Shown here: positions 2,422 to 38,533 of the stretch, piece by piece
Layout: each line of letters begins with the position of its first letter
Numbering within the stretch: position 1 is the first letter of the stretch
Origin: a virus
Length of the DNA: 40,987 bases
IMG/VR virus record: IMGVR_UViG_3300025687_000106
Coordinates: 1-40,987 of that record
Reading direction: 5' to 3' (one strand)
Notes under the pieces: model-generated
Told to the model about the DNA's origin: nothing
The model's database searches: none
Seen by the model: the letters and a program-made list of their open reading frames with translations, nothing else
Position numbers and translations under genes: made by a program

Positions 2422-3075
2422 ATGAATAAAAGAGAAAGTTTAATATTTTATAGAAGTTTCTATGAAGCTATAAAAGAATTAGATATAGAGAATCAATGAA
2501 AAATTTATAATGCAATATTTAAATATTGATTAGACTTTATTGAACCTAATTTAGAATGAATATCTAAAACTATATTCACTTTAATTAAACCTCAATTAGA
2601 TGCAAATATTAAGCGATTTAAAAATTGAAGTATAGAAAAAAAAAGCAAAACAGAAGCAAAACAGAAGCAAAAAATAAGCAAAGTACAAGCTAATAACAAT
2701 AACAATAACAATAACAATAACAATAACAATAACAATAACAATAACAATAACAATAACAATAACAAAGAAATAGAGATAGTCACAACTGAAGTTGCTCCCA
2801 AAAAATTAACATTAGAAGAATATATAAAAAAAGAATTTAGTTTAGATTTTATAAAAGAAGTATATGATAAATTTTGATTATCAAAAAAAGAATTTAAAGA
2901 AGAATGTAATGCTTTCGTTGAAAAATGGAAAGAAAAATCTCCAAATTGAAAAAAAGAAAGATGGGAGAAAGAAAAAACATTTGACCCAAAGTTGAGATTT
3001 AGAACATGGATGAGAAATAGTAAGAAATGGAATAAAGTATGAGATAAACAAAAAAATAAAACTATTATTATTTAA
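2422..3075 (+). CDS. DUF6291-like replication-module protein with a 24-Asn run
   Basis: The first ~70 residues (ESLIFYRSFYEAIKEL, then GKIYNAIFKYGL and IKPQLDANIKRFKNG) match the DUF6291 pattern seen in phage replisome-organiser-like proteins. A basic linker leads into exactly 24 consecutive Asn (residues 91-114), then a second helical, Trp- and Lys-rich domain. The Asn tract separates two folded regions, like a flexible linker. The gene is preceded by an attenuator leader. I infer a DNA replication role from the family; DNA binding is not shown. Confidence 0.75.
2692..2763 (+). repeat. (AATAAC)12 hexanucleotide tract encoding Asn24
   Basis: AAT and AAC alternate perfectly for 72 bp. Slippage by 6 bp would keep the frame and change linker length, so length polymorphism between close relatives is expected. 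Confidence 0.95.
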
Positions 3076-4694: not shown

Positions 4695-4907
4695 ATGAAA
4701 AGGTATAAAATTGTAAATATAACTGAGGAGAAAATAGTTTGATACTTTTCTGAAGATTGAGCAAAGGATTTTGTTTTAAAGAAAAATCCTAATGAACGTT
4801 TGTATCTTGAATCAATGTTTTGAAATATTGTTACATCAGTTACTGATACAAATACAAATGAAATTTTTGTAATATGGGAAGTGCAAGAAGGGAACAAAAG
4901 TGAGTAA
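4695..4907 (+). CDS. unknown small protein (70 aa)
   Basis: First gene of the nucleotide-metabolism operon. The sequence (KIVNITEEKIVGYFSEDGAKDFVLKKNPN) looks like a small beta-rich domain. The start abuts a T-run without a Shine-Dalgarno sequence. No family recognised. Confidence 0.55.
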
Positions 4908-4929
4908 TTTATTTAGTAAATTTAATAAA

Positions 4930-5373
4930 ATGATAAAATTTTTGAAAATTTGAGATACAAAAACACCTACAAGAGGTACAGAATATTCATCAGGGATAGA
5001 TATATATATTCCTAATGATTTTGAAACAACTACAATGAAAGTATGAGATACTATTCTTATACCGACAAGATTAAAATGTATTATAGAACCATGATTTGAT
5101 TTCACACTTAAAGAAAAAAGTTGAGTAGCTTTAAAGAAAAATTTACAAGTTTGAAGTTGTGTAATTGATGCTGATTATAGAGGTGAGTTTAATATACATT
5201 TTACAAAAATAGCTTGAGAACCTATAGAATTAAAAGCTTGAGATAAAATAGTTCAGTGAATTGTAAGACCAGTTGTATTATGAGATATTGAAATGATTTC
5301 TGAAGAAGAATTTGAAAAAGAAAATAATACAATGAGAGGTTCTGGTTGATTTTGAAGTACATGAAATAGATAA
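4930..5373 (+). CDS. dut: dUTPase (trimeric, dUTP diphosphatase)
   Basis: Hydrolyses dUTP to dUMP and PPi, keeping uracil out of DNA and feeding dUMP. All five motifs are visible in order: I (SSGID, 20-24), II (KSGVA, 63-67), III (G..VIDADYRGE, 75-86), IV (DKIVQGI, 105-111) and V (RGSGGFGSTG, 136-145). Several glycines of motifs II-V are UGA, which makes this gene the clearest proof of the code. Length 147 aa is typical. A GTG at 4900 would add 10 residues; I chose the ATG because motif I then sits at the usual distance from the start. Confidence 0.97.
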
Positions 5374-5375
5374 TT

Positions 5376-5756
5376 ATGAATAAAACAAGAGAAATGTATA
5401 CTCAATTACAAGATAAAAATTTGTATGAGTTATTAAGACGTAAAGAACAATATAGTTGATATCAAGAGAATGATTATCAAAAATATATTAAAGATACTAT
5501 ATCAGAACTTTTAGAATTACAAGAATGAATAGAAAATAATGATTGAGAGAATATAGAAGAAGAATTAATGGATGTTATTATGCAGATTTGACAATTAATA
5601 AACAAATTGTTAAATGATTGATTAATAAACAAACTTGACTTTTGAAAACAAAAAAGTAAAATACTAAAAAGGTCACCAAACCTTAAACTTGGTAAATATA
5701 TTTGATTACAACAAGAACATTATGAATGGATGAAATACAAAGCCTCTCAAAGATAG
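5376..5756 (+). CDS. MazG-like all-alpha NTP pyrophosphohydrolase
   Basis: Residues ~48-80 give the MazG pattern: ELLELQEGIE, then ENIEEELMDVIMQIGQLI, with the metal-binding Glu/Asp set EExxD, followed by FGKQKSKILKRSP (the K...RR/RP tail). Such enzymes hydrolyse (d)NTPs to (d)NMPs. In phages that make modified cytosine, an all-alpha enzyme of this superfamily removes dCTP; the neighbouring predicted dCMP hydroxymethylase makes that role attractive here, but it is inference. It starts 2 bp after dut and overlaps the next gene by 35 bp. Confidence 0.82.
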
Positions 5757-6009
5757 TGAATGAAAAGCGGCTTTACAATATATACAACCAGATTTTTTAT
5801 TACAAATGTGAGAAGTATTAAGAATGTGAGCTGAAAAATATAAACCTATGTCATGGGTTTGAGTTGATACAGAACTCCACTATGCAAGTGCTATGAGACA
5901 TTTATTAGCTTGGAAGAAATGAGAATTAGTAGATAAAGAAAGTTGATTATCTCATCTTATTCATGCGGCTTGTAATTTACATTTTATACATTATAACGAA
6001 AAAAAATAA
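5722..6009 (+). CDS. DUF5664 dNTP nucleotidohydrolase-like protein
   Basis: Carries the DUF5664 signature GAEKYKPMSW, then ELHYASAMRHLLAW, GESGLSHLIHAACN-like segment (here KESGLSHLIHAACNL). These proteins are annotated as dATP/dGTP diphosphohydrolases or pyrophosphohydrolases in the MazG fold. The 95-aa length is normal. The frame overlaps the MazG gene end by 35 bp and the next gene's ATG by 1 bp, so this is a compact nucleotide-pool cassette. Confidence 0.85.
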
Positions 6010-7073
6010 TGATATATATAATCCCATTAGGAGACCAATTCCCTACAACGCAATTATTAGATTATAATAAAATGAGACCTGATGTTTACTATATATTACA
6101 TTCTTTAGAATGAGAAGAAGTAAAAATAATATGTAATACAAGAAATAAATATCAGATAGAAAATAAACATTATAATTTATTGGATTATAATGAATTAGAT
6201 TTAAAAATAAATGAAAATGATATACTTATTATATACAATACACCTTTTATTAATTTTTGATGATTATGGTGAAATGAATATAAGAAACAAATAGAATTTA
6301 TTAATAGATTTAATAATAATAAAGTTTATACATATGTTTTTGATTTAAATAAATCTTTTAGTTTTAAAATGATAAATAAGATTTGTGATAAATTTAATTT
6401 AGAAAAACAAAAAACTATAGATATTATTTCAAATTCTACATTTTTAAGTTGAAATTTATATAATAGAGATAAAATGATAGAAATATATTCAGAACAATGA
6501 ATAAATGTAAAAGAATTTATTTATATACCTGTTATATGAAATGTAAGAAATTTAATAGAATATAAAGAAATAAAAGAAGAACCACTTTATGATACTATTT
6601 ATTATTGAACTACTCGTTGATGAGCAAGAAATAAATTTATAAAAAAGTATTATGAAGATATGGAATGAAATCATTTATTAATATGACCATGGAATAAAAT
6701 ATTAAATAATGATAATCACTTTTATAAAAGCAAAACACAATTTAATGAATTATATAATCTTATTAATAATTCTAAGGTATCTATAATGACGTGAGATGAA
6801 AGTTATTATAACAATAGTATACATCATAGATTAATTGAATTAAGTTTATGTGGTACACTTATTCTTATTGATTATGATTATGATATAGAATATAAAATAT
6901 TTTGAGAAGAAAATAAACATTGGTATATTGAGAATAAAGAAGATGTACATAATATGATAAAATTTTTAAAAAATAATCCTAAATTAAGAACAAAATATAT
7001 AAAATATCAAAGAGAACTTTTAGAACAAAAATTTAATACTTATACAAAATTACAATATGAAAGATTTATATAA
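6009..7073 (+). CDS. GT-B-like glycosyltransferase, possible DNA-base glucosyltransferase
   Basis: 354 aa. The C-terminal half has the CgeB/GT-B-type layout: IYYGTTRGGARNKF (a loop like the second nucleotide-binding domain start), then LLIGPW, then SKVSIMTGDESYYNNSIHHRLIELSLCGTLILID and a helical tail with NPKLRTKYIKYQRELL. The N-terminal half is a Rossmann-like domain. It shares 17 bp with the downstream thymidylate-synthase-family gene, so the two are translationally linked. That pairing recalls phages that glucosylate hydroxymethylated bases. Alternative: a surface or polysaccharide glycosyltransferase. Confidence 0.72.
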
Positions 7074-7890
7074 AAATATATTAAGAGATTTATTAGAAAA
7101 TTGAAATGACTCTGCACCAAGATGACAAAATATAAAAGAATTACTTAATTTTAGTGTAAAAATAGATGATATACTTAATGTATGATATGAATATCCATCA
7201 AGAAAATTTCTATATAAATATATATCAAGTGAATTATTATGGTATCTTTCATGAGATTTATCAGTAGATAATATATGACAATATGCTAATTTATGGAATA
7301 CTATTCAAAATGAAGATTGATTAGTAAATTCAAATTATTGATATTTAGTATTTTATAGAGATATTTTAACAAATAATTGATGAAATCAATACGAATGGGC
7401 ACTTAATAGTTTAAAACAAGATAAAGAAAGTAGACAAGCATTTATAAGATATAATCATGATTGATGTCAAGAACTATTTGAAAAAGATGTGATATGTACA
7501 TATTATCAACAATTTTTTATAAGAGATAATCAATTACATTGTATTAACTCAATGAGAAGTAATGATATTATATATGGATTTACTGCGGATGTTGTATGGT
7601 TTAGTTTAGTACATCAAAGTTTATATTTAGATTTAAAAGAAACTTATCCTGAATTAGAACTATGATGTATGTGGCATAATGCTAATTCAATGCATATATA
7701 TGAACCAATGTTTAATAAAGCTAAACAACTTATTTTAGAAGAATGAACAAATATAAAAATAGAACTGAAACAATCTTTATATGAACAATTAGATAAAGAT
7801 TATGATAAATTATGGGAAATACTAAAATATACTACAAACTATAAACAATTTATTGAAAATAACTTTTTTATTAAAATAACAAAAGAATAA
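7057..7890 (+). CDS. thymidylate-synthase family enzyme, predicted dCMP hydroxymethylase
   Basis: 277 aa with the core of the ThyA fold: catalytic Cys147 in DVICTYYQQFFI, phosphate-binding R167-S168 in SMRSND, and H213-Y215 in MHIY. At the position of the Asn that selects dUMP in thymidylate synthase (E. coli LPFN) this protein has Asp178 (FTAD). An Asp there is the known hallmark of T4-type dCMP hydroxymethylase. The Pro before the catalytic Cys is Ile. I therefore predict 5-hydroxymethyl-dCMP formation. Neighbours (dUTPase, MazG, glycosyltransferase) fit a modified-cytosine pathway. Confidence 0.85.
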
Positions 7891-8063
7891 TGAAACAACT
7901 CCTAACTAATAAACAATTCAATAATGCTATAAAACAATTAGAAGATGTTCTTAAAAAAAGATGATATGAACTACTTTTTAATAATACATGATTTAATATA
8001 ATAGAAAAACCTAAAATAGAATTTAAGTCTATGAAAAATCAGGAAACTAAAAATAAGACATAA
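7890..8063 (+). CDS. small basic protein (57 aa)
   Basis: Starts on the last base of the preceding stop codon. Mainly helical and Lys-rich. Its final codons lie inside the 55-bp conserved motif at 8051-8105. No family recognised. Confidence 0.5.
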
Positions 8064-8368: not shown

Positions 8369-8941
8369 ATGCAATTAGTTAAAGATATAAATACATTTTT
8401 TAGAAAAGATAAACAATATTGAATAAATGAATTATTTAAAGTAATGTATTCATTTTGTATTGAACAAAATAATTGTTTTATGTTAACGAGTACATATAAA
8501 ACTAAATGATTAAATAGAAATAATCATAGAAAAATAATGTGATTATTAAAAAAATATAAATTTGTAAAAAGTTGGAAAGTATATAATTCTAAATATAAAA
8601 AGAAATGTACTTACTATAGTTTATCCACAAAATTATATAATATATGTAGAAAAATATCAACAAAATTAGTTAATAAATATAATTTTATACAATTACATAA
8701 TGATATTAATATAAATGATGTAAAAATATTTATAAAAAATATATATAAAAAAACTGAATTTATTATTGATACTAATACTAAAATAACGAAACATATTTTT
8801 AGATTAAAATGAATAATCTATAAATTATTTAGAGATAATCAATGAATAAAAATATCACAAAATATATGATTTAATAAAATAAGAATATATAATTTTATTG
8901 AATTTAATAATTTAGTAATGAAATGATATGAAAAACAATAA
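8369..8941 (+). CDS. leader-controlled basic protein, module 1 (winged-helix-like)
   Basis: 190 aa, Lys-rich. The N-terminal ~85 residues (YGINELFKVMY, KTKGLNRNNHRKIMGLLKKY, then KSWKVYN and CTYYSLS) read like a winged helix: helices followed by a beta wing. A second basic alpha/beta part follows. It is clearly paralogous to the minus-strand gene at 31914-32462, with roughly half of the first 85 residues identical by eye, including DIN.FF, YGI.ELFK, KGLNRN and KSWK. Function unknown: autoregulatory DNA/RNA-binding protein or a toxin of a type III-like pair. Its end overlaps the next gene by 14 bp. Confidence 0.8.
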
Positions 8942-14759: not shown

Positions 14760-15098
14760 ATGTCAATAATATACTGAAACTGAAACTGATACTGATATTG
14801 AAACTGAAACTGAAACTGATACTGATACTGATACTGATACTGATACTGATACTGAGACTGAAACTGATACTGAGACTGAAACTGATACTGAGACTGAAAC
14901 TGATACTGAGACTGAAACTGAAACTGATACTGAAACTGATACTGAGACTGAAACTGATACTGAGACTGAAACTGATACTGAGACTGACACTGAAACTGAA
15001 ACTGATACTGATACTGAAACTGATACTGAGACTGAAACTGATACTGAGACTGAAACTGAGACTATAATAAAATAGTTAAAACTTTAATTACTAAATAA
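14760..15098 (+). CDS. Gly-X dipeptide-repeat protein, UGA at every second codon
   Basis: Read with UGA=Gly, ATG 14760 opens a 112-aa protein: five leader residues, then 48 Gly-X units with X = Asn, Tyr or Asp, then a short tail. A higher-order unit Gly-Asp-Gly-Asn-Gly-Tyr recurs. It has a family 1 variant cassette at its start, and the next gene begins 7 bp after its stop. The frames giving Thr-Asp/Glu and Leu-Lys/Ile are also open across the tract, but lack a start with this context. A disordered, sticky or silk-like protein is the natural reading. Alternatively the DNA repeat itself matters. Confidence 0.7.
14775..15062 (+). repeat. 288-bp hexanucleotide repeat ACTGAN
   Basis: Forty-eight uninterrupted 6-bp units TGANAC-type, with N mainly A, T or G and one C, and one TAT variant. 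Many units are grouped as 18-bp ACTGAG-ACTGAA-ACTGAT blocks. Size changes by unit slippage would keep frame. Confidence 0.95.
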
Positions 15099-17733: not shown

Positions 17734-18153
17734 ATGCCTAAATGAGATTTCTGAGGTAAAAGAAATACAAATTGATTTAAACAAAATCCACAAAATGCTT
17801 GAAGAAAAAAAAGTGGTATAGCTTTTATAAACGAAGAACTACAAAATAAAGGTAAATATCCTGCTACTAAACAAGATATAGAAGTAAACTATCTTAGTAT
17901 GATATCATTAGAAAGAGATGAATTAGAAAAATTAGCTACAGATACTACTAAACCTATATTGATAAATATATTAGCTAAGAATTTATTAAATGAAAAATGA
18001 TTTGATATAGCTGAAAAGATGTTAGATAGAGGTATATGAAAAGCTAAACAAACTGAAGAAGTAAAACAACAAGTAGAAATAGTAAGTTCTAAAGAGATAG
18101 AGAATAAAGATTTGACAGAATTAAAGAATATTATTAATAATCTAACCAAATAA
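17734..18153 (+). CDS. terminase small subunit-like protein
   Basis: 139 aa. N-terminal NPQNAGRKKSGIAFINEELQNKGKYPATKQDI, then LSMISLERDELEKLATDTTKPILINILAKNLLNEKGFDIAEKMLDRGIGKAKQ, as in phage small-terminase-like proteins of the 'Gxxx.GRK' type (flexible basic start, helical core). It would recognise the packaging site and hand DNA to the large terminase at 30292. First gene of the morphogenesis block and close to its own promoter, though unusually far from terL. Confidence 0.72.
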
Positions 18154-30291: not shown

Positions 30292-31917
30292 ATGAATAAA
30301 GAGAAAGAAATAGTTTCATTGGAACAATTACATTTACAAAAAATACAAAAAATTATTAAAGAAAAATGTAAAATTTTAAATGAAGCAGCAAAATCTGATG
30401 AAACTAAACAAGTACTTATAGAAATATGTAAAAAAGACCCTATCTACTTTTTTACTTATTTTTTAGTTACAGACCGTAATCCTGGTTTAATTCCTGAACA
30501 ATATTGAAATGAAATACCTTTTATACTATTTGAATTTCAAGAAGAATTTATTAAAGATGCTTGGGATTGTATATTAATGTGAAGATTACCTCCTGAAGAA
30601 AGAACTGAACCAACTGATATGTTTAGTGAAAAATCTCGTCAAATGTGATTCTCATGGTTATTTGCTTGATTACAACTTTATGCTTATATATTTCATGATA
30701 TGAAATCTTTATATATATCAATGAAAGCAGATGAGGTAGATAGAGCATGAGATATTAAATCACATTTTGAAAAGATTCGTTTTATGATACGTAATCTACC
30801 TCAATGGATATTACCAAAATGATTAAATAAAGAATCAGGTACAGAACATAATAAATCTATGGTTATTTCTCGTTGAGATTGAACTTGAGTTATTAAATGA
30901 GAATCTGCTAATCCTAATGCTTGAAGATGAGGTACTACAGCTTTTACAATCTTTGATGAAATGGCTTTTATGCAATATGCTCAAGCTATTAATATGGCAA
31001 TAGCTTCTTCTACTCCTTGTCGTTTCTTTAATAGTACACCAAACTGAGAATGAAATGAGTATTATAGAATGAGAAAATTAGCAGTTGATTGAAAAATAAG
31101 ATATCATTCTTGCATGCGGTACGAAAATCCTTTTTATACTAAAGAATGGTATAAATGGAGAACTGAGTCTATGACTAAAACCCAAATTGCTCAAGAAATT
31201 TTAATAGACTATAATACTGCATTAGTTTGACGTGTATATCCAGAATATAAACATTGAACAGAATTAATTGAATATGATGATAGTTTACCGTTGTATATAG
31301 GGATTGATAATTCACATGGTGGTCAAGATAACAATGCTCTCGTTGTATTACAAAAAGATTGACATTATTTTAATATTATTGATAGTTGTGAATTCAATTG
31401 TAGTCCTAGACAAATGGCAGAAATAATGGCTAAACAACCTACTATACAAATGAGTAAAAAACAATTGGATTTTTATAATAAATATAGAGAAATGAAATTA
31501 CCTATATTTGTAAGTGATTGTTATGATACACATACTTCAGTTTGAGATAATACAATATTTTGATATTATCAAGATGTATGAATATTTTTAAATATACCAT
31601 CTACTAGAAAAAAACAAGAACAAATACAAATAGTAAGTTCTAATTTACATAGAGTAAGAGTAAGTGAAACTTGTGCAGATTTTAGTTCATGTATACAAAA
31701 TTCTATTTATCCTGAAATTAAAGAAAATAGTATGAGAACTACTCCAGCTACTTTACCAGTTCATTCTTGGGCGAGTCATATAAGGACAAGTTTTGAATAT
31801 TTAATTGTATGGTTAATAGAACAAGAAAAATATACTAATGTAAAACCTAAGAGAATAGCAACAGAAGAAAGAAATCCAATAACTTGAGAAGTAGAAACTA
31901 AATATGTCTATATTTAA
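30292..31917 (+). CDS. terL: terminase large subunit
   Basis: Packaging ATPase/nuclease, 541 aa. Walker-A-like SRQMGFS at residues 115-121 (Gly from UGA), a coupling region with SMKADEVDRAGDIKSHFEKIRF, Walker B TIFDEMAF with D222-E223, then STPNGEGNEYY. The nuclease part begins at YIGIDNSHGGQDNNALVVL (D339) and includes FVSDCYDTH with a later acidic residue, as in RNase H-like terminases. The length is normal. It is unusual that the minus-strand gene is inserted between it and the portal; their stop codons overlap. Confidence 0.93.
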
Positions 31918-32462
31918 GTTTTTTTCATAATTAAATGATTAAATTCAAATATTGTATATATTGTTTTTCTTAAATTATTTCTTTCTGTTATTAACCATAG
32001 TCATTTACTTTTAAATAAACAATATAAAACTCATCGTAACCTAAATAATCTTTTTCACTCAAATATAATAAATTCAGTTTTAGGATACATTTTTTTTATA
32101 AATTGTTGTATCTTTTCGATTCTCATTCATTCTTTTAATTCAATATATGTAGATTTTTTACTTAATTTAACTATAATATCTCTACAAATCATATATAAAT
32201 CATTACTTATACTTCTATAAGTACATACTTTTCAATATGTTTTATTATATTTTTTCCAACTCTTTATTTTTCAAGCTTTTTCTAATAAATCTAATATTTT
32301 TCTTAAACTATTTCTATTTAATCATTTAACTTGATATGTAGTAGTTAATAAAAAACTATTATTATTTTCTATACTCTTAGTATAAAAAGTCTTAAATAAT
32401 TCAGTTATTCAATAATCTTTATTTTTTTTAAAAAATCAATTTATATCTTGTATTATTCTCAT
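31914..32462 (-). CDS. leader-controlled basic protein, module 2 (winged-helix-like)
   Basis: 182 aa, the only clear minus-strand gene. Paralogue of the 8369 protein: DINGFFKKNKDYGITELFKTFY, QVKGLNRNSLRKILDLLEKAGKIKSWKKYN, CTYRSISNDLYMICRDI, then FIKKMYPKTEFII and IFEFNHLIMK at matching positions. A helix-helix-wing layout is likely in the first 85 residues. It has its own promoter, structured leader and terminator. Its stop overlaps the terL stop. The position between terL and portal is that of a moron. Confidence 0.82.
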
Positions 32463-37516: not shown

Positions 37517-38533
37517 ATGGCTGTTTTAACTACATTTAGTTACGAAGATTCAGTTGATTTGATTAATAGAGAGTTTGATGCTGGTAAGCTTAATCCTCTT
37601 GATAATTCAATGAAAGAATCAGGAATCGTAAAAACAAACACTGTTCCTGCGAATAGTGGAGGTACTAGAAGACATAAAGAAGTACCTGTAGGAGAACTTT
37701 ATGCTAATGATAAAGCTGAAGGTGGTCTCACTACAAAAACTAGAGTTCAACAAGGATATTATAAGGATACTACTGCTAGAAGTTTTTCTAAAAGTATTGA
37801 TATTACTTATGAAATGAGAACTCTTAATAAAGTAAATGAAATTTACAATGCTGCTAATTTTATTGGTGGTGTAATTACTAGAAGGGAAGATTTGAACTTA
37901 AGTTTATTCTTATCTTTTGGTACTGCTACTTCATATACTAATATGGATGGTAGAAGTGTAGATATTTCAACTGGTGATGGTTTATCACTTTGGAATACTT
38001 CACATACATTAACAGGTTCAAGTACTACTTATAGAAATAGACTTGCTAATAATCCAGCATTCTCTGAAGGTGCACTTGAATTAATGGAAGATTTATTCGT
38101 TACTAATATTTATACTAATCTTGGTGAACAAGTTGGTTGTACTCCAGATACTATCTTTTCAACTGATTATCCAACATTAGTAAATACTATAAGAAGGAAT
38201 TTACAATCTACTGCACAAATTTCAGCTCCAAATGAAGGTGTTGTTAATGTATATAAAGGTAAATATAAACATGTAATTCTTAATAAATTTGATATGAATG
38301 CAAATGGTGTTAAGGATGCTACAAAGAAAAATTATTGGGGAATGGCTGATTCTAAAATCTCTTCATTCTTCCATGATGTATATTCTTCTCCTGAAATGAA
38401 ATATCCAACTAACGGAAACAATGGTGAAGATATTGAAACCCTCGATTGGACTTTTACATCAATTGGGATAAATGACTCTTGTGTTGTTGCTGGTAGAGGT
38501 TTAATGTTCTCATCAGGTGATGGAACTGCATAG
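37517..38533 (+). CDS. major capsid protein (HK97-type fold likely)
   Basis: 338 aa. RHKEVPVGELYANDKAEG, RREDLNLSLFLSFGTA, SLWNTSHTLTGSSTTYRNRLANNPAFSEGALE, and a C-terminal domain with HVILNKFDMNANGVKD and a final beta strand are typical of phage major capsid proteins of the Mu gpT-like/HK97-type kind. All 29 glycines are GGN; none is UGA, in contrast to almost every other gene here. Followed by a G-rich hairpin. Confidence 0.85.
   Translation: MAVLTTFSYEDSVDLINREFDAGKLNPLDNSMKESGIVKTNTVPANSGGTRRHKEVPVGELYANDKAEGGLTTKTRVQQGYYKDTTARSFSKSIDITYEMRTLNKVNEIYNAANFIGGVITRREDLNLSLFLSFGTATSYTNMDGRSVDISTGDGLSLWNTSHTLTGSSTTYRNRLANNPAFSEGALELMEDLFVTNIYTNLGEQVGCTPDTIFSTDYPTLVNTIRRNLQSTAQISAPNEGVVNVYKGKYKHVILNKFDMNANGVKDATKKNYWGMADSKISSFFHDVYSSPEMKYPTNGNNGEDIETLDWTFTSIGINDSCVVAGRGLMFSSGDGTA

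Follow-up and report, generated by a model that had tools for sequence, protein, structure and literature searches.

The window analysed here is the whole of the viral record IMGVR_UViG_3300025687_000106 (positions 1 to 40,987), a stretch of 40,987 bases. It contains a run of six plus-strand genes between positions 4900 and 8063 (Table 1), whose tight packing suggests that they constitute one operon. Pfam and PHROGs agree on the families of the run, as does NCBIfam where it matches, and the dUTPase, MazG-type and DUF5664 genes that a preliminary description had reported upstream of the two larger genes were all recovered by their Pfam families. The DUF5664 gene is listed from a TTG codon at 5689, although translation more likely begins at the in-frame ATG at 5722, and its stop codon shares base 6009 with the start codon of the following glycosyltransferase (GT) gene. 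The GT gene in turn overlaps the ThyA-like gene by 17 nt (7057-7073). Contrary to the preliminary description, which called the two fused by overlap, they are separate genes read in different frames. For the 57-aa ORF at the end of the run no PHROG match was found, and its Pfam matches were weak and below the cut-off.

Table 1. Genes in the run between positions 4900 and 8063 of the window, read with code 25
Position	Strand	Product	Length (aa)	Remarks	Supporting matches
4900..5373	+	dUTPase	157	code 25; GTG start; first in run	PF00692 E 1.9e-20; PHROG_135 E 2.7e-34
5376..5756	+	MazG-type NTP pyrophosphatase	126		PF03819 E 1.5e-6; PHROG_5164 E 1.9e-5
5689..6009	+	DUF5664 / dGTP_diPhyd_N nucleotidohydrolase			PF18909 E 9.4e-25; PHROG_801 dATP/dGTP pyrophosphohydrolase E 3.7e-28
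6009..7073	+	DNA beta-glucosyltransferase relative, predicted 5hmC DNA glycosyltransferase	354	14 TGA	PHROG_7922 beta-glucosyltransferase E 1.1e-12; PF13524 E 1.5e-7
7057..7890	+	dCMP hydroxymethylase relative (predicted), ThyA family	277	12 TGA	Pfam thymidylate synthase E 1.5e-19
7890..8063	+	small ORF	57	start shares base 7890 with hydroxymethylase stop	ORF list

Read with the standard code, the window contains almost no long frames. Reading TGA as sense raises the total of stop-free runs of at least 200 codons, taken over six frames, from 568 to 7,753 codons, and the GT and ThyA-like genes are open only in this reading. Across 42 ORFs of the window, TGA occurs 561 times compared with 178 GGN codons. 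TGA was translated as each of the 20 residues, and the products were scored against profiles from which the window's own sequence had been left out. Glycine ranked first of the 20 in both genes, reaching 241.9 bits for the ThyA-like protein (alanine 220.5, tryptophan 201.8) and 86.1 bits for the GT (serine 70.1, tryptophan 52.3). The margin of glycine over the runner-up is 21 and 16 bits, respectively, and tryptophan scores 40 and 34 bits worse. On this sequence evidence, TGA is to be read as glycine in the window, i.e. according to code 25. Absconditabacteria and Gracilibacteria use this code, and phages and prophages with code 25 are reported from both in a published survey (PMC10746230). 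Because TGA reads as glycine, the host is probably a patescibacterium of the Absconditabacteria/Gracilibacteria type, a prediction drawn from the genetic code alone. A first scan of genome_contigs with the terminase found no relative, and a second recovered a single one, contig RXKB01000065.1, the terminase of which is 46% identical to that of the window. This contig belongs to a MAG titled Candidatus Dependentiae and itself reads as TGA-sense; it may derive from a code-25 phage and have been misbinned, in which case the Dependentiae title may not name the host.

Single-sequence scans of viral_contigs revealed no close relatives of either the ThyA-like protein or the GT, and alignment profiles were used instead. 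In a phmmer search of PDB, the ThyA-like protein matched T4 dCMP hydroxymethylase first (E 4.6e-21), followed by the CMP hydroxymethylase MilA (5.4e-17), with the best thymidylate synthase (TS) at 2.1e-11. Its residues were compared in an alignment with 18 named enzymes and 110 viral_contigs rows, some of which derive from the same record. Asp178, which the preliminary description had correctly located in place of the Asn of dUMP-specific enzymes, aligns with T4 Asp179 and E. coli Asn177. Asp144 aligns with T4 Asp145 and E. coli Leu143, and Ile83 with T4 Val85 and E. coli Trp83. In the T4 gp42 structure, as described in excerpts of PMC6400193, Asp179 serves cytosine recognition, Asp145 activates water and Val85 replaces Trp83, and a text excerpt of PMC8670742 reports that among 433 environmental TS-family proteins those on modified-cytosine contigs mostly carry Asp at the first of these sites and the others mostly Asn. 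Glu59, Ser92, Tyr94 and Cys147 likewise match T4 gp42, and R126 and D170 are also present; Gln127 (T4 Arg124), Thr176 (Arg177) and Pro217 (Arg220) depart from it. All 110 viral_contigs rows carry Asp at the 145 site as well as at the 179 site, in a sample biased toward relatives of the Asp-bearing query: 80 of the underlying loci came from a scan that fixed the motif MRS[NS]D and are its best matches to that query.

In a midpoint-rooted tree of 55 rows, the window enzyme is grouped with T4 gp42 and a huge-phage enzyme in a clade of 22 rows (support 100/96), apart from true TS and from the dUMP and CMP hydroxymethylases, although its position within this clade is weak (85/46) and the nearest row is only 44% identical. 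The predicted structure is of high confidence (pLDDT 94.9), and its fold agrees with those of the TS family (Z 22-26). Because MilA (Z 25.9), TS (about 23) and T4 gp42 (22.5) all fall within this range, the fold by itself was set aside as a means of telling the activities apart. Taken on sequence, the prediction of a dCMP hydroxymethylase of the T4 gp42 type is well supported, and the T4-type assignment of the preliminary description agrees with both the discriminating residues and the tree.

The alternative that the gene encodes an ordinary TS, which would convert dUMP to dTMP for a nucleotide-poor host next to a GT unrelated to DNA, is extremely unlikely. It could draw on membership of the Pfam ThyA family and on the neighbouring dUTPase, which makes dUMP. 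However, the three true TS in the comparison (E. coli ThyA, Geobacillus E2 TS and that of Acinetobacter phage Td) carry Asn, Leu and Trp at the sites where the window enzyme has Asp, Asp and Ile. The window enzyme also falls well short of the NCBIfam TS cut-offs (60 of 327 bits in one example), and in the tree it joins T4 gp42 rather than true TS.

Two further activities of this family deserve consideration. A dUMP hydroxymethylase producing 5-hydroxymethyluracil, which the GT would then glycosylate, finds some support in Maribacter phage Molly. There, the hydroxymethylase next to the annotated beta glucosyl transferase has Asn at the 179 site and the gene order is that of the window, and such a GT may thus also accompany a dUMP enzyme. 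Asp at the 145 site is common to the window and the SPO1 dUMP hydroxymethylase. At the 179 site, however, SPO1 and Molly both have Asn, whereas the window and all 110 viral_contigs rows of the biased sample have Asp. SPO1 and Molly are also placed elsewhere in the tree, where both, like MilA and GodonK, form long branches, and we regard a dUMP enzyme as very unlikely. The chance that the enzyme is instead a dCMP methyltransferase yielding 5-methylcytosine, as in phage XP12 (the enzyme of which lay outside the comparison), is exceedingly small. Replacement of Asn by Asp in TS is by itself sufficient to give a dCMP methylase, according to an excerpt of PMC8670742. Hydride transfer, on the other hand, would be expected to preserve Trp83 and Leu143, the TS residues that govern solvent access, a role described for Trp83 in PMC6400193. 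The window enzyme has Ile83 and Asp144 at these positions, as hydroxymethylases do, and a methylase would leave the adjoining 5hmC glycosyltransferase without a substrate.

The GT of the window was compared with known enzymes by both sequence and predicted fold. A phmmer search of PDB with the single sequence returned only two entries at E <1, both T4 DNA beta-glucosyltransferase (BGT) sequences (2.2e-7 and 1e-6, residues 60-340). The predicted structure, of moderate confidence (pLDDT 74.6), matched T4 BGT first (Z 25.5 over 325 residues, rmsd 3.5), followed by T4 alpha-glucosyltransferase (17.8) and other listed entries at 16.2 or below. Foldseek was concordant, with E 4.6e-14 for BGT. As the alignment behind the model included T4-like GTs, the model may lean toward BGT, and searching PDB with the single sequence provides the cleaner evidence. 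The structural comparison with DNA glucosyltransferases that the preliminary description had proposed as a check thus places T4 BGT first by a wide margin, in agreement with that search.

Residue conservation was examined in 24 aligned rows (the window and 23 relatives), to which T4 BGT was added. T4 Asp100, Gly188, Arg191, Arg195 and Arg269 are kept in 24 of 24 rows, Glu272 in 23 and Asp258 in 22. We take Asp100 to be the catalytic residue of T4 BGT, and Arg191, Arg195, Arg269 and Glu272 to form its UDP site; the fold matches include 1nzd, which is titled a D100A mutant. The window retains all seven counterparts (Asp112, Gly200, Arg203, Arg207, Arg274, Glu277 and Asp263) and departs from the other 23 rows at Ile125 (Lys or Arg elsewhere) and Asn229 (Gly elsewhere). 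As a thin control of one genome, the GT profile was run against the Dependentiae MAG, where the best match reached only E 0.066. Sequence and model comparisons together make it well supported that the protein is a relative of T4 DNA beta-glucosyltransferase (GT72) and, by prediction, a 5hmC DNA glycosyltransferase. Beta-GTs are treated as the phage-only family GT72 in a 2026 paper (PMC13216743). The transferred sugar is most likely glucose from UDP-glucose, although it may differ, since the window GT is only about 20% identical to T4 BGT.

It is highly unlikely that the neighbouring enzyme is a true dCMP hydroxymethylase while the GT acts on a surface polysaccharide, teichoic acid or protein. 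Such a role would be compatible with Pfam, which above its curated cut-off assigns only the broad Glyco_trans_1_2 family. The only PDB sequence matches at E <1, however, are T4 BGTs, and in the fold comparison TarM, which ranks highest among the listed enzymes with a substrate other than DNA, trails T4 BGT by 9 Z units. The genomic context of the family points in the same direction: at GT-profile loci in viral_contigs, a TS-family gene lies upstream on the same strand in 30 of 31 cases, with 365-1,937 bp between the profile matches. Many of the 31 loci are near copies, which leaves fewer independent cases, and a single locus (L121) lacks the upstream TS-family gene. In the reverse direction the association is sparse, with a strong GT match in the flank of 3 of the best 80 hydroxymethylase loci, or 6 of 80 when weak matches are included, and some named hydroxymethylase relatives are accompanied by a carbamoyltransferase instead of a GT.

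Close pairs of GT and hydroxymethylase genes occur in T4, Enterococcus phages, Lactobacillus phage ATCCB, the huge phage LR756500 and Maribacter phage Molly. Gene 42 and b-gt of T4 belong to the same two families, adjoin on one strand and share the key catalytic residues with the window pair. They are separated by 23 bases, whereas in the window the GT comes first and the genes overlap; identity to the T4 proteins is 28% for the hydroxymethylase and 20% for the GT. The window further differs from T4 in its use of code 25 and in the 41-kb size of its record, in which no polymerase, dCTPase or dNMP kinase was recognised.

In Enterococcus phages VPE25 and vipetofem and in Lactobacillus phage ATCCB, a TS-family enzyme adjoins, or lies one gene from, a beta-GT, as in the window. 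VPE25 and ATCCB also share Asp at the 179 site, and VPE25 a dUTPase. Unlike the window, these phages use the standard code and infect Firmicutes, and the VPE25 and ATCCB enzymes fall outside the clade of T4 and the window. In ATCCB, a UDP-galactopyranose mutase (L011:5941-7038) directly follows the hydroxymethylase and beta-GT, and its DNA sugar might be of the galactofuranose type. The 462-kb phage LR756500.1 encodes the best phage-collection match of the window hydroxymethylase (40% identity, same clade) and a GT nearby on the same strand, although with a gap of about 1.4 kb, in the opposite order and in the standard code. The pair of Molly, annotated as beta glucosyl transferase and thymidylate synthase, has an 8-nt overlap; its Asn at the 179 site predicts a dUMP enzyme, in contrast to the window. 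The Xp15-type enzyme is a TS-family relative that shares Asp at the 179 and 145 sites with the window, but its loci contain carbamoyltransferase genes nearby rather than the window's GT. Carbamoyltransferases of the Xp15 type act on 5hmC, as stated in an excerpt of PMC8670742.

The preliminary description had read the whole gene set as a pathway. The MazG and DUF5664 genes, taken alone, give no indication of it and were dropped as pathway markers, as relatives of both were absent from the 31 GT-scan loci in single-sequence searches; in the best 80 TS-scan loci, such a search found one DUF5664 relative. Relatives of the dUTPase occur in 19 of the 31 GT-scan loci and in 19 of the best 80 TS-scan loci. 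When 55 ORFs of the window were compared with PHROGs, none was named a DNA polymerase, a dNMP kinase (T4 gp1) or a dCTPase (gp56). In the cytosine replacement pathway of T-even phages, gp56 and gp1 act as dCTPase and dNMP kinase, respectively. The host may supply these enzymes, or the record may be incomplete, or the genes may be too divergent for recognition. It is also possible that the MazG-type enzyme lowers dCTP and could stand in for the dCTPase. As no relative of gp1, gp56 or a polymerase was named among the 55 ORFs, cytosine replacement may be less than full.

Related records allowed the distribution of the gene pair to be assessed. The window shares its terminase with six viral_contigs records (54-69% identity) and a putative capsid protein with three (35-81%), and TGA reads as sense at L012 and at the locus of each of the six records with the terminase. 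Both cassette genes are absent from nine related records at E values up to 0.001, although most of these records are fragments. Two are long and use code 25, namely G006 (45,095 b) and G007 (43,391 b). Searches of their ORFs with the cassette's own profiles, taken in pieces, gave nothing above 7.4 bits. At the BLAST cut-off applied, G006 and G007 share most structural genes of the window, and among window genes before position 18000 a match was found for one in G006 and three in G007. As nine relatives, including G006 and G007, lack the pair, the hydroxymethylase-GT cassette is best seen as an accessory module. Among the 122 TS-family and 44 GT-family loci listed, some of which are record copies, only that of the window contains TGA inside the aligned frame. 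A search for a second code-25 hydroxymethylase or GT with a DNA pattern in which glycine had to be written TGA gave 21 stretches, none of which contained either gene; such scans for code-25 relatives are weak, as glycine was written as GGN or codons were fixed.

The absence of the cassette from nine related records and its low identity to known relatives (44% to the nearest tree row) could also indicate that it is decayed or newly acquired and no longer works. Both frames are nevertheless intact over their full length, the catalytic residues are present, and the genes are tightly packed and overlapping. Recoded glycine usage is moreover established in both genes, with 12 and 14 TGA glycines in the hydroxymethylase and GT, respectively, and the cassette has thus been retained over a period sufficient for adaptation to code 25. 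A non-functional cassette is accordingly most improbable.

Several other features of the window were recorded. The putative major capsid gene (37517-38533), which was named by position and size only, without a family match, contains no TGA among its 29 glycine codons, compared with about 76% of glycines encoded by TGA in the 42 ORFs. Its homologues in G006 and G007 are also TGA-poor (6 of 25 and 4 of 24 glycines), and this scarcity probably reflects the codon preference of a highly expressed gene. Two paralogues 23 kb apart, at 8369-8941 on the plus strand and 31914-32462 on the minus strand, are 49% identical over 185 aligned positions. Furthermore, a long degenerate tandem repeat of 6/18 bases (ATACTG-like) at 14771-15063 reads as a low-complexity peptide, and an array of AATAAC hexamers at 2692-2765 encodes about 24 asparagines within the protein at 2422-3075.

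Taken together, the discriminating residues, the placement in the T4 gp42 clade, the T4 BGT match and the occurrence of the two families as neighbours in many phages favour the proposal of the preliminary description that the genes form a pathway for glycosylated hydroxymethylcytosine. The window thus very likely represents a code-25 phage with a T4-type cytosine hypermodification module, the activities, sugar and protective role of which we infer from sequence and predicted structure. In the proposed scheme, the dUTPase, MazG and DUF5664 hydrolases would reshape the nucleotide pool, and the hydroxymethylase would convert dCMP and methylene-tetrahydrofolate to 5-hydroxymethyl-dCMP. Cys147 would attack C6, Asp178 would recognise and protonate cytosine N3, and Asp144 would activate the water that ends the reaction. 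As no phage kinase or polymerase was recognised, host kinases and the host polymerase are assumed to place 5hmC in the phage DNA, after which the GT would move a sugar, most likely glucose from UDP-glucose, onto the hydroxymethyl group post-replication. The glycosylated DNA would then be hidden from restriction enzymes or CRISPR nucleases, and the phage would, by analogy, probably disguise its DNA as T4 does.

While the chemistry is known from T4, its setting in a recoded, probably patescibacterial phage is new. Searches of one open-access library found no paper on patescibacteria and hydroxymethylcytosine, on code-25 phages and hydroxymethyl, or on DNA modification in Gracilibacteria phages. 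The main texts on such phages in PMC10746230, PMC12911398 and PMC13059738 contain no mention of hydroxymethyl, thymidylate or glucosyltransferase. The suggestion that such a pathway was not previously known for this host group is consistent with these searches. On balance, we consider it rather probable that phages infecting recoded, ultra-small Patescibacteria carry a glycosylated hydroxymethyl base as a replacement or decoration of cytosine. A minimal cassette of two genes would serve this purpose in a genome of ~41 kb, together with the host polymerase and with folate and UDP-sugars supplied by the host or by the host's prey. If so, T4-type glycosylated hydroxymethylcytosine would extend to phages of recoded and metabolically very reduced bacteria, and a phage could carry the pathway in a 41-kb record even though no polymerase or dCTPase was recognised there. 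Such hosts would, moreover, exert restriction or CRISPR pressure worth the cost of the pathway. This leads to the testable prediction of a modified cytosine in the phage, detectable in nanopore or nucleoside data from such communities, and the two enzymes may accept new sugars or serve as tools for labelling 5hmC.
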